DNA of 64,000 bases from Acetivibrio sp. MSJd-27 (lineage in GTDB: Bacteria; Bacillota; Clostridia; UMGS1840; HGM11507): NCBI RefSeq assembly GCF_018918095.1, contig NZ_JAHLPV010000001.1:62001-126000 (forward strand). The letters are read 5' to 3'. Below are positions 3,345 through 59,656 of this stretch, one piece after another. Position numbers and translations under genes: made by a program. Under the pieces are notes generated by a model. The model was not told the origin of the DNA and made no database searches. It saw only the letters and a program-made list of their open reading frames with translations. Positions within the stretch are counted from its first letter, which is position 1; every line of letters begins with the position of its first letter.

Positions 3345-3445
3345 TTCAATAAGGGCTTGTCCCGTCATTCAACGAGGACAAGAACACTGCTTGGCAATGC
3401 CGCAGTCAGCAGGAGATTGCACTCCCGCTGACTGCGGATATGGAA
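3345..3445 (+). repeat. R2 multi-hairpin repeat, copy c
   Basis: Begins TTCAATAAGGGCTTGTCC and ends GCGGATATGG. The long stem is CCGCAGTCAGCAGGAG against CTCCCGCTGACTGCGG with one A-C mismatch, so it differs from copies b and d at paired positions. This copy lacks the right-end CCGCCTTAAGAGGCGG hairpin. It fills the space between the divergent DUF5131 and RACo genes. Confidence 0.8.
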
Positions 3446-5102: not shown

Positions 5103-5121
5103 AATTTATCTTACTTAAATG

Positions 5122-5265
5122 TTCAATAAGGGCTTGTCCCGTCATTCAACGAGGACAAGGGTACTGCATAGCAGTGCCGCAATCATCGGGAGATTGTACT
5201 CCCGATGATTGCGGATATGGAACCCGCCGCCTTAAGAGGCGGGGGACATCTTGCCCGCAGTTATA
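5122..5265 (+). repeat. R2 multi-hairpin repeat, copy b (full length)
   Basis: 144 bp from TTCAATAAGGGC to CCCGCAGTTATA. Four stem-loops: TTGTCC/GGACAA; ACTGC-ATA-GCAGT; a 16-bp stem CCGCAATCATCGGGAG/CTCCCGATGATTGCGG; and CCGCCT-TAAG-AGGCGG followed by GGGACATCTTGC. Near identical to copy d at 59513. The rest of this gap (5266-5423) holds further GC-rich inverted segments but no gene. Confidence 0.85.
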
Positions 5266-19266: not shown

Positions 19267-19346
19267 ATGAAAAACTGCGCGTCTGCTGTTTTTTGAAACA
19301 TGCAATTGCCCACGATTCCGCGCAATTTCCTATGTTATAAAAAAAG
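19267..19346 (+). repeat. R3 degenerate hairpin repeat, copy a
   Basis: Contains GCTGTTTTTTGAAACATGCA and an AATTGC...GCGCAATT hairpin, ending TTTCCTATGTTATAA. It matches 23066-22965 (minus) closely and 47978 and 62667 more weakly. Confidence 0.65.
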
Positions 19347-19650: not shown

Positions 19651-19678
19651 TTGGAAAATGAAATGATTGTGGTATAAT
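19651..19678 (+). promoter_or_regulatory. Promoter of HD-domain gene; -10 lies in R4
   Basis: TTGGAA, 16-bp spacer, TATAAT, with the extended element TGTGG before the -10. The -10 is supplied by the first bases of the R4 repeat. Confidence 0.6.
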
Positions 19679-19786
19679 AACCTCACAAACCTCTAAAACA
19701 TTGAAAATGTTAAGAGGTTTGGAGAACGATTGAATCACAATACTGCGGCGACATTCCGCCGCCTTCGTTGTTGTGGTATCATAAAA
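19670..19786 (+). repeat. R4 117-bp promoter/leader repeat, copy 1
   Basis: Starts TGGTATAATAACC, forms hairpin AAACCTCT...AGAGGTTT with inner AACATT/AATGTT, then GCGGCG-ACATTC-CGCCGC inside a CACAA/TTGTG outer stem, and ends TGGTATCATAAAA. Nearly identical to 41859-41743 (minus). It ends 51 bp before the HD gene start. Confidence 0.8.
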
Positions 19787-19837: not shown

Positions 19838-20323
19838 ATGTGGAAATTTAAAAATAAAGACGCATTTGAAGAATGCATCAAAGATCTTTTAGCCGATTCC
19901 TCTGTACAGGAAATGCGGCATATTCCCCAGCACACAAAAAACATATCCTGTTTGGATCACAGCATCTTTGTCGCTTATCTCAGTTTCTTAATTTGCCGGC
20001 GGTTTCATCTGGATTATAAAGCGGGTGCCAGAGGCGGACTTCTGCACGATTTATTTCTATACAACTGGCGGGATAAGGAACATGAGGGCCACCACTTATT
20101 CAACCATCCCAAAATTGCCTTAAAAAACGCTTCCGAACAATTTGAACTGACGGATAAAGAAAAAGACTGTATTGTCAAGCATATGTGGCCTGTTACCAAA
20201 AAGCTGCCAAAGTACAGAGAAAGCTTTATTGTAGGCTGTGCGGACAAAATATGTGCAGCACTTGAGATGATGAGGTTATTCCGCGTATTCGGGGTTCAGG
20301 CAAAATTATGCGCCGCTGTTTAA
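19838..20323 (+). CDS. HD-domain protein (metal-dependent phosphohydrolase fold)
   Basis: 161 residues. Motifs run LDHSIFVAYLSFLI, GGLLHDLFLYNW (HD pair), HHLFNHPKIALKNA and IVKHMW, the arrangement of small HD hydrolases seen in Clostridia. ATG 19838 follows ATAGGAG; the frame open from 19730 runs through R4 and is rejected. Transcribed from the R4-associated promoter. Substrate unknown. Confidence 0.82.
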   Translation: MWKFKNKDAFEECIKDLLADSSVQEMRHIPQHTKNISCLDHSIFVAYLSFLICRRFHLDYKAGARGGLLHDLFLYNWRDKEHEGHHLFNHPKIALKNASEQFELTDKEKDCIVKHMWPVTKKLPKYRESFIVGCADKICAALEMMRLFRVFGVQAKLCAAV

Positions 20324-22964: not shown

Positions 22965-23066
22965 CTTTTTTATAACATAGGAAATTGCGCGAAATCGTGC
23001 GCAATTGCATGTTTCAAAAAACAGCGTGCGAAGCGCGGCTGCGTTTTTCAGAATGAAAAACTTTTT
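22965..23066 (-). repeat. R3 degenerate hairpin repeat, copy b (best preserved)
   Basis: Minus strand: GTTTTTCATTCTGAAAAAC hairpin, a CAGC/GCTG stem, TTGAAACATGCA, then the perfect hairpin AATTGCGC-ACGATTTC-GCGCAATT and TTTCCTATGTTATAA. Confidence 0.65.
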
Positions 23067-41128: not shown

Positions 41129-41707
41129 TTACTCCATCGATACAAAGTACAGATCCAGCTGATCAGCGGTGGAGGAACTATAAATTGATTTGGAAGCTTT
41201 CTCAAAGGTTAGATTTCTGTCGTTTGTCAGGACAATATAGCTGCTTTCCCTCTCTGCGTTTGGCAAAGTACCCTTTAATGCAACGCAGTATTTATAATAG
41301 CTGATATCCCTGTCGGCTGACAGCTTACGGAACAAATACCATTTGCCGTCGACCGGTATTTCAATCGTATCTCCTGTGCCCAGCTGATAGCCAAATTCCG
41401 TCCCGAAGTTAGATGTATTCTCCTCTGCTGGAATCTTGGGCAACTCTGTTTCAGCGGTTATCTGACCGTCCATAACACCGCAGCGGGCTTCTGTTTCACT
41501 CTCTTTTCCGGTGTCATAATACAGCTCTCCGTTCACATTAACCATCCGTACGCCTTGCCCTGTGTTTTCTTTGTTCTCCTGCGCGCCATCTGAGGATACA
41601 TAAACCTGCGTAGGCCCATCTGCACCGCCGATGATTCCAATGCTTGAACTGGAACATCCCGTAAACAGCACGCAAACCGAGAATAAAAGCACTGCGATTT
41701 TATGCAT
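41129..41707 (-). CDS. Lipoprotein carrying an OadB-like IIGGADGPT motif
   Basis: 192 residues. Lipobox LFTGC with Cys18, followed at once by SSSSIGIIGGADGPTQVYV. The segment IIGGADGPT is also found in the beta subunit of Na+-pumping decarboxylases, but here stands alone on a small lipoprotein. The rest is polar, with GKWYLFRKLSADRDISYYKY. ATG 41707 follows GGGAGG. The R4 repeat lies directly upstream in the sense orientation. Function unknown. Confidence 0.75.
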   Translation of the reverse strand: MHKIAVLLFSVCVLFTGCSSSSIGIIGGADGPTQVYVSSDGAQENKENTGQGVRMVNVNGELYYDTGKESETEARCGVMDGQITAETELPKIPAEENTSNFGTEFGYQLGTGDTIEIPVDGKWYLFRKLSADRDISYYKYCVALKGTLPNAERESSYIVLTNDRNLTFEKASKSIYSSSTADQLDLYFVSME

Positions 41708-41742: not shown

Positions 41743-41859
41743 GGTTATTATACCACAACAACGAAGGCGGCGGAATGTCGCCGCAGTATTGTGATTCAAT
41801 CGTTCTCCAAACCTCTTAACATTTTCAATGTTCTAGAGGTTTGTGAGGTTATTATACCA
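41743..41859 (-). repeat. R4 117-bp promoter/leader repeat, copy 2
   Basis: On the minus strand it starts and ends with TGGTATAATAACC, with the same two hairpins as copy 1. Within the central 104 bp I see one difference (CTCTAGAAC against CTCTAAAAC). It ends 35 bp before the lipoprotein start. Confidence 0.8.
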
Positions 41860-41973: not shown

Positions 41974-42059
41974 ATCTCACCTGAAGTAGCAAATCTTTTG
42001 AAGAAAAGATGGAAAGGTTGTCTTTTTGCGAAATGGAAATGCTTTTCATATGGATTTTG

Positions 42060-45333: not shown

Positions 45334-45347
45334 AAACCTTTTCCATA

Positions 45348-45611
45348 AGCATTAGGGAGTTGAACCCCATATGCCCTGCACATGTTAAATTTCCGCCTTT
45401 TCGGATTGTCAGCCTTGCTGCACCCTTACGCACCAAAAAAACGAATTGATCGAAAGATTCCTATGTGCAGGGTCGCAGAGTTTCCACGGAGCAAATTTTT
45501 TGTAAGACAAGGAAAAAGCGCAGATCATCCTGACGGATTGACGAGCATTTTGACGCAGGATTGCGGAAAATTTGCCTGTGGAAACCATATTGTGTTCGAC
45601 TCTCTAATGCT
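45348..45611 (+). mobile_element. TA-flanked MITE, copy B
   Basis: 264 bp, ends AGCATTAGGGAGTTGAACC and AGCATTAGAGAGTCGAAC (minus), TA at 45346-45347 and 45612-45613. Same orientation as copy C. Inserted just after the EndoQ-helicase gene, so it may carry that transcript's 3' end. Confidence 0.85.
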
Positions 45612-45734
45612 TAACAACGCTGCAAAAAATAATCTTAAAAATAATTTTTTGAAATACAGTTCATCATAATTTTTTCGAAACTGGAAATCCTATCAGAGAT
45701 ATTGAAATATTTTTCGGACAAGGAGGATTTTCAG

Positions 45735-46766: not shown

Positions 46767-47055
46767 TGGACACCTCCTTTCCCTGTCGTTCTCCTCCGCA
46801 TCCGTGAATCGATATTTTTTGGCACTTCCATTTTTTAGTTTTTTCAATTACATCGAACGCTGGAATCTGCATATTGTTTTCACAATTCTCCGCACACATA
46901 TCGGGGTTTAAAGATGAATAAAGTATGAGATAAAACCTTTTACTCTTCTGACAAAAACAGCTTCGAAAGAATAAGCACCGTATCGAATCCATTTTATTCC
47001 ATGGATTCGCCGATATAATCGCAAATACGCTGTTCGTTATTTTTTGAGACAATTA
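46767..47055. other. Intergenic stretch, nothing clear
   Basis: About 290 bp between the small acidic gene and MITE copy C. I see no gene, strong hairpin or consensus promoter; a TATAAT occurs near 47008 without a good -35. Confidence 0.5.
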
Positions 47056-47327
47056 AGCATTAGGGAGTCAAACCCCATATGCCCTGCACTTGTTAAATTT
47101 CCGCCTTTTCGGATTGTCGGTCTTGTAAGGCGTCAGCCTTGCTGCACCCTTACGCACCAAAAAACGAAAATTTGCCTATGTGCAGGGTCGCAGAGTTTCC
47201 ACAGAGCAAATTTTTTCGTAAAACAAGGAAAAAGCGCAGATAATCCTGACGGATTGACGAGCATTTTGACGCAGGATTGCGCAAAATTTTCCTGTGGAAA
47301 CTATATTGGATTCGACGCCCTAATGCT
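47056..47327 (+). mobile_element. TA-flanked MITE, copy C
   Basis: 272 bp, ends AGCATTAGGGAGTCAAACC and AGCATTAGGGCGTCGAATCC (minus), TA at 47054-47055 and 47328-47329. Most of the interior is shared with copies A and B, including a TCGGATTGTC...GACG region and TTTCCACRGAGCAAATTTTT. Confidence 0.85.
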
Positions 47328-47534
47328 TAAGAGAAAATTCACTGTCTGACACGGATGACACCTTTATTTGATTCTATTATAAAATAGTTCCATACCATAT
47401 GCAAGGTTCCCGTTCCGTAGATTTCCGCCGCGCCTTTTCCATGATGGCATTGCCCTCAATGCAGCGATTCATTGGAAGAGATCACTTTTCCCAGATGAGT
47501 TCATATGATAATAACAGGAAAGGAGGTATTCCCC

Positions 47535-59512: not shown

Positions 59513-59656
59513 TATAACTGCGGGCAAGATGTCCCCCGCCTCTTAAGGCGGCGGGATTCATATCCGCGATCAGCGGGAGTGTAATCTCCCGCTGATCGCG
59601 GCACTGCTATGCAGTGCCCTTGTCCTCGTTGAATGACGGGACAAGCCCTTATTGAA
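59513..59656 (-). repeat. R2 multi-hairpin repeat, copy d (full length)
   Basis: Minus strand: TTCAATAAGGGCTTGTCC to CCCGCAGTTATA, 144 bp. The long stem is CCGCGATCAGCGGGAG/CTCCCGCTGATCGCGG, with two changed base pairs relative to copy b, both compensated. Ends in the CCGCCT-TAAG-AGGCGG hairpin and GGGACATCTTGC. Confidence 0.85.

Follow-up and report, generated by a model that had tools for sequence, protein, structure and literature searches.

A dispersed double-hairpin element that adjoins ATAA in clostridial promoters and may supply their messages with structured 5' leaders

The stretch of DNA analysed here (the window, 64,000 nt) holds two copies of a repeat, R4, whose relatives are scattered through its own genome (G000, 3.05 Mb in 104 contigs), mostly in sense orientation ahead of genes, and whose left end meets a promoter -10 box. 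We favour, with moderate confidence, the explanation that this is a small non-autonomous mobile double-hairpin element lodging 3' of ATAA; in promoters the -10 box would survive and the message would gain a structured 5' leader. If this is right, an insertion of a promoter-breaking kind leaves the promoter functional and changes how the message begins, and one repeat family can give the same kind of structured leader to many unrelated genes.

The two window copies (19670-19786 on the forward strand and 41859-41743 on the reverse strand) are 117 nt each and identical at 113 of 117 positions, with mismatches at positions 27, 111, 116 and 117 only, leaving one within the first 110 nt. An earlier note on this DNA had recognised them as a near-identical pair, each opening with an extended -10 box and lying sense to a start codon 35-51 bp away, and all of this was borne out: both start with TGGTATAAT, and their ends lie 51 nt before ATG 19838 (copy 1) and 35 nt before ATG 41707 (copy 2). 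The HD and OadB-type proteins that it named downstream do give matches, both of them below cut-off, with 21.2 bits against 22 for the HD domain of the gene after copy 1 (19838-20323, forward) and 28.0 bits against 31.6 for OAD_beta in the small lipoprotein-like product of the gene after copy 2 (41129-41707, reverse).

As an A-type element, copy 1 extends from its left box TGGTATAAT (19670-19678) to a right box TGGTATCAT (19774-19782), which is the -10 box with one change, and thus occupies 19670-19782 on the forward strand. Between the boxes lie hairpin 1 (19682-19724), with the conserved foot CCTCAC / GGAGAAC, and hairpin 2 (19731-19781), whose 3' arm enters the right box, each supported by fold and covariation. 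A -35-like hexamer, TTGGAA, stands at 19651-19656 in the unique flank outside the repeat, with 16 bp separating it from the TATAAT of this copy. The corresponding element of copy 2 occupies 41747-41859 on the reverse strand, its left box lying at 41859-41851 and its right box at 41755-41747, and the direct repeat TGGTATAATAACCT at 41859 and 41755 was found as the earlier note described, except that its length is 14 bp, not 13. A different hairpin module, B (41971-41860, reverse strand), which the note had missed, adjoins copy 2 on the upstream side; it starts with TGGTATAAT and extends to the left box of copy 2, the -10 box being common to both, and its TATAAT is preceded, after a gap of 18 bp, by a -35-like hexamer in unique sequence, TTGCTA (41987-41992, reverse strand). 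The window also contains repeats of other kinds: a 60-nt inverted pair near copy 1 (19285-19344 and 22966-23025, 97% complementary), a separate dispersed family of about 280 bp whose members are 91-95% alike (585-862, 45346-45618 and 47053-47332), and a further family with the motif GCACTGC..GCAGTGCCCTTGTCC (1-73, 3345-3445, 5120-5265 and 59513-59656).

Carrying out the genome-wide search that the note had proposed, we obtained 51 BLAST matches to the element in G000 (E 10 or better), forming 40 clusters whose orientation was recorded, and 56 matches at E 0.1 or better with a covariance model (R1). The R4 element is dispersed across unrelated loci: among 10 near-identical A copies the flanks are unrelated except for adjoining modules and one 20-nt match (E 7e-4). 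When orientation was scored against script-chosen, uncurated ORFs of at least 100 aa, the next downstream ORF was sense in 36 of 40 A-clusters (binomial p 2e-7) and in 45 of 49 arrays (p 8e-10), where random placement would give half, and the next upstream ORF showed no bias (24 sense, 23 antisense and 2 without a call over the 49 arrays). These arrays comprise the 40 A-clusters and nine module-bearing sites from 21 further sites, the remaining 12 having been dropped because they had no recognisable module, lay inside genes or were the antisense neighbour of a counted cluster. Random orientation of the other copies, the outcome that the earlier note had named as counting against it, was therefore not observed. 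There were four exceptions: C1:23898 and, each no more than about 15 nt away from where a sense gene upstream ends, C15:20144, C18:7402 and C64:5084.

The roughly 50 arrays of G000 precede functionally diverse genes, including recA, HPr, ParA, trmFO, a LeuA-like enzyme, KdpD, a penicillin-binding protein, NrdR, the OLE RNA, transporters and proteins without a Pfam match. Given this diversity we rejected a shared regulon, and the suggestion that the two unrelated genes of the window share one regulatory input is not supported.

To the left of the element, TRTG is conserved before TATAAT, followed upstream by no conserved letters until a -35 signal that sits in locus-specific unique DNA, outside the repeat and 16-18 bp from the left -10. 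For 44 left ends of G000 (five of the 49 arrays, without a -10-like left box, were excluded), the best TTGACA score within a 16-18 bp spacer averaged 3.48, compared with 2.54 +- 0.15 at other offsets, and at least four TTGACA matches occurred at that spacer in 22 of 44 left ends, against 14 or fewer elsewhere; the signal is weakened by the script having taken a neighbouring hexamer at several left ends (e.g. C41:1276, C6:17361 and C18:7402). It was repeated in nine left ends from six other genomes (3.89 versus 2.60 +- 0.35, a score reached at none of 54 other offsets). The earlier note had proposed that the repeat delivers a promoter together with a leader RNA; the dispersal and the sense placement stand, and the hairpins covary, but the whole promoter is not inside the repeat, since only the extended -10 lies at the junction and both the -35 and TRTG are external.

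Lodging in an existing promoter, which would put the promoter first and the element second, fits this non-repeat -35 and TRTG better than promoter delivery. We therefore judge unlikely, though worth weighing, a mobile promoter in which the repeat brings the extended -10 and leader, the -35 arises by chance or later selection, and the genes share one input. In its favour, a TGGTATAAT-type box stands at both ends of A copies in direct orientation, and the pattern TRGTATMATAA occurs at 62 sites against 10 for the reversed control, many of them at array junctions, which suggests that letters around the -10 have spread with the repeat. The G that follows TRTG in 30 of 44 left ends, more often than a pure promoter motif needs, likewise suggests that the repeat may include some of the left box. 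The dispersed, sense-oriented copies with unrelated flanks would also suit such a promoter, as would the OLE RNA (RF01071), which in G000 starts at the last box of the C6 array (L062:1689-2315, forward). The diversity of the target genes argues against a shared input.

By matches to sequence models, the element family occurs in several lineages of Clostridia. At E 0.001, R1 matched 10 of 291 genomes of the class, the source genome included. A second model, R2, built from hairpin 1 alone, matched 10 of 12 selected genomes at E 0.01 (the other two were those included although R1 had not matched them), and at E 1e-4 with stricter filters it matched 3 of 398 genomes of the phylum, namely G000, G167 (at least 13 copies) and G646, a member of another class with one copy. 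The nearest relatives compared belong to other genera; a DNA search of the other eight genomes of the order found no element, and the covariance model alone detected relatives. Exact-pattern scans of genome contigs and viral contigs, BLAST against plasmids and a phage search with the R4 element likewise gave no element or match, as did R1 on 80 loci around CoaBC relatives. A 33-nt match obtained with a relative as query, in an intergenic position of a Streptococcus equi prophage (L192:1500-1533), is nearly the same D-type hairpin but lacks the conserved foot and was rejected as a member.

Comparison of the copies distinguished two junction types. Type I elements follow TATAA in promoters and begin with T, completing TATAAT; type II elements follow ATAA, begin with G and have no promoter signature. 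This first base, before AACC, is coupled to the linker base before TTG (T/A in 43, G/C in 19 and mixed in 0 of 62 elements), a pattern that pairing between the linker and the right-hand junction would produce, although the coupling could reflect just two old subfamilies. In the first unit of each array (14 of 65 units, inner tandem ones, were omitted), TATAA ends the flank in 32 of 35 type I cases, the TG of an extended -10 is present in 29, and the -35 signal is 3.49 versus 2.52 +- 0.20, whereas among 16 type II units ATAA precedes all 16, TG three, and the -35 is absent (2.38 versus 2.53 +- 0.24). ATAA, the short fixed sequence 3' of which insertion would occur, precedes 33 of the 35 type I units and all 16 of type II. 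Type I was found in G000, G055, G179, G154, G054, G216, G017 and G167, with both types in G017, and type II elements of G002 and G003 include several copies at a stop codon or just before a terminator. Because promoter-lodging and gene-end-lodging sisters differ at one coupled base pair, the targeting rule is directly testable.

Type II sisters, with the same ATAA junction and no promoter, also speak against a promoter carried by the repeat. Their positions at gene ends would suit a neutral or parasitic hairpin repeat that settles where insertion is least damaging, either behind the ATAA of promoters or at the ends of genes, and whose leader has no function. The diversity of targets and the very variable copy number, from one to more than 50 per genome, agree with this as well; we nonetheless think it improbable in view of the strong conservation of pairing in the hairpins, which mobility at the DNA level could equally explain.

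That conservation is seen both in the fold and in the alignment. The folding energy of the forward copy is -39.3 kcal/mol, whereas shuffled sequences average -21.1 (z -5.8) and none of 200 was as stable; both hairpins covary, and the two strong hairpins of the earlier note held up. Among 29 aligned copies, pairing is retained at 26 pairs in 92.8% of cells, compared with 39-54% when the partner is slid by 1-3 columns, and 14 pairs have changed on both sides (75 such cells versus 26 in shuffles); in the wider family of 32 sequences, hairpin 1 shows double changes in 11 of 11 predicted pairs. Counts of wobble pairs gave no clear preference for a sense RNA strand (36 G-U versus 25 A-C, p 0.2, with the column of the commonest wobble excluded), so the pairing may act in single-stranded DNA just as it may in RNA. 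Transcription generally starts about 7 nt after a -10 box; a message with such a start would lack part of the CCTC of the foot, and the invariant foot may therefore serve a DNA step rather than the RNA. We rejected by eye a leader peptide read from GGAGAAC(A/C)TTG, as the frames after TTG are unconserved and TTG is better read as the foot of hairpin 2.

The near invariance of the hairpin 1 foot, AACCTCAC / GGAGAAC, could alternatively mark a conserved cis-regulatory RNA, an inherited structured leader giving signal-responsive control of particular genes. Recurrent neighbours in unrelated genomes point the same way: the OLE RNA also lies directly after the element in G179 (L181:837-1506, reverse), which belongs to a different family from G000, and both ParA (L032; L185/L189) and trmFO (L031; L216) have an upstream element in G000 and G017. 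We consider this very unlikely, however, because near-identical copies stand before dissimilar genes of one genome, the stems vary freely, and type II copies lie at gene ends. In addition, no curated covariance model of Rfam 15 matched the element at gathering score, and a search at E 10 gave only a chance-level mir-374. The trmFO element of G017 is itself type II, placed between a topoisomerase-match gene and trmFO.

For the mobile element that we favour, the unit can be written ATAA-[T/G]AACCTCAC-hairpin 1-GGAGAAC[A/C]TTG-hairpin 2-ATAA, and it would insert 3' of ATAA. At type I sites the flank would provide the -35, TRTG and TATAA, and the element the T of its first base, which completes TATAAT and so preserves the -10. 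Since dozens of copies sit exactly at the promoter box before genes, the transcripts of these genes probably share one kind of folded leader; transcription would begin within a few bases of hairpin 1, giving an mRNA whose 5' end bears two hairpins, which would be likely to affect how stable the message is and may also influence initiation.

Non-autonomous IS200/IS605-type or REP elements carry hairpins near their ends, lack inverted terminal repeats and insert beside a short fixed sequence. R4 resembles them in its end-near hairpins and its want of terminal inverted repeats, the same box being present at both ends in direct orientation, and its putative insertion beside ATAA would be comparable. 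It differs from the Y1 elements of this genome, which have another left-end hairpin and lie after terminators: at the five contig ends with a Y1_Tnp match, hairpin and flank are not those of R4, and neither left ends nor site linked these elements to it. The IS200-like Y1 transposase genes themselves are cut at the five contig ends (L155-L159), and for at least four of them the left end comes just behind a T-run resembling a terminator. We also considered an integron-like or Xer-like origin, but none of the eight tyrosine recombinase (PF00589) matches in the genome was tied to the element.

Many G000 copies stand head to tail, neighbours having the TGGTATAAT junction box in common and R1 coordinates that overlap by about 12 nt, and other hairpin modules are interspersed in the arrays. 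We assigned five module kinds, A to E, by eye; hairpin-1 kinds A, C and D are each paired, again by eye, with several hairpin-2 kinds, so that units look assembled from parts, and arrays of G167 likewise combine unlike hairpins. With another such box at the right end, units and different modules can stack head to tail there. More tentatively, and with some doubt, we therefore suggest an element adapted to the -10 box, its first base completing TATAAT, whose interchangeable hairpin modules may recombine at the box and so shuffle 5' leaders over dozens of unrelated genes.

Among known repeats, the BOX elements of Streptococcus are described as small dispersed intergenic elements of tandem modules that form hairpins if transcribed, probably parasitic with effects on neighbouring genes, and as overrepresented between convergent genes (PMC3049150). 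R4 arrays also consist of unlike hairpin modules, their kinds judged by eye, in variable tandem number; compared by description, they differ in standing sense before genes (in the 45 of 49 arrays above) and in joining their modules at a -10 box. Correia repeat enclosed elements (CREE) of Neisseria are short and dispersed and are reported to be able to create promoters at their ends and alter transcripts of neighbours (PMC2649163). R4 is again a short dispersed element with a promoter box at its ends, which are direct repeats with the -35 outside, whereas CREE have inverted repeats. Stem-loops at the 5' terminus can stabilise mRNA, as titles cited in PMC3997798 indicate. R4 is predicted to place a comparable hairpin at the very 5' end of the message or close to it. 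Stabilising stem-loops of this kind belong to single genes; one R4 family would supply a leader to many, and any stabilising effect is putative. Literature searches by words and by motif letters returned nothing describing the R4 family (15 of the 28 papers containing a motif string were unrelated by title), which is not proof that the family is undescribed.

Two minor features of the boxes were also observed. Arrays often end with TGGTATCAT as their final box in place of TGGTATAAT (e.g. window 19774-19782), a change that destroys the -10 and, judged by eye, makes hairpin 2 longer. Outside the known modules, TGGTATAATAA sites (L071 and L073; C33:21286 and C46:21177) are followed immediately by a short hairpin and GCAATGAATG, suggesting that messages beginning with a hairpin may be commoner in this genome.
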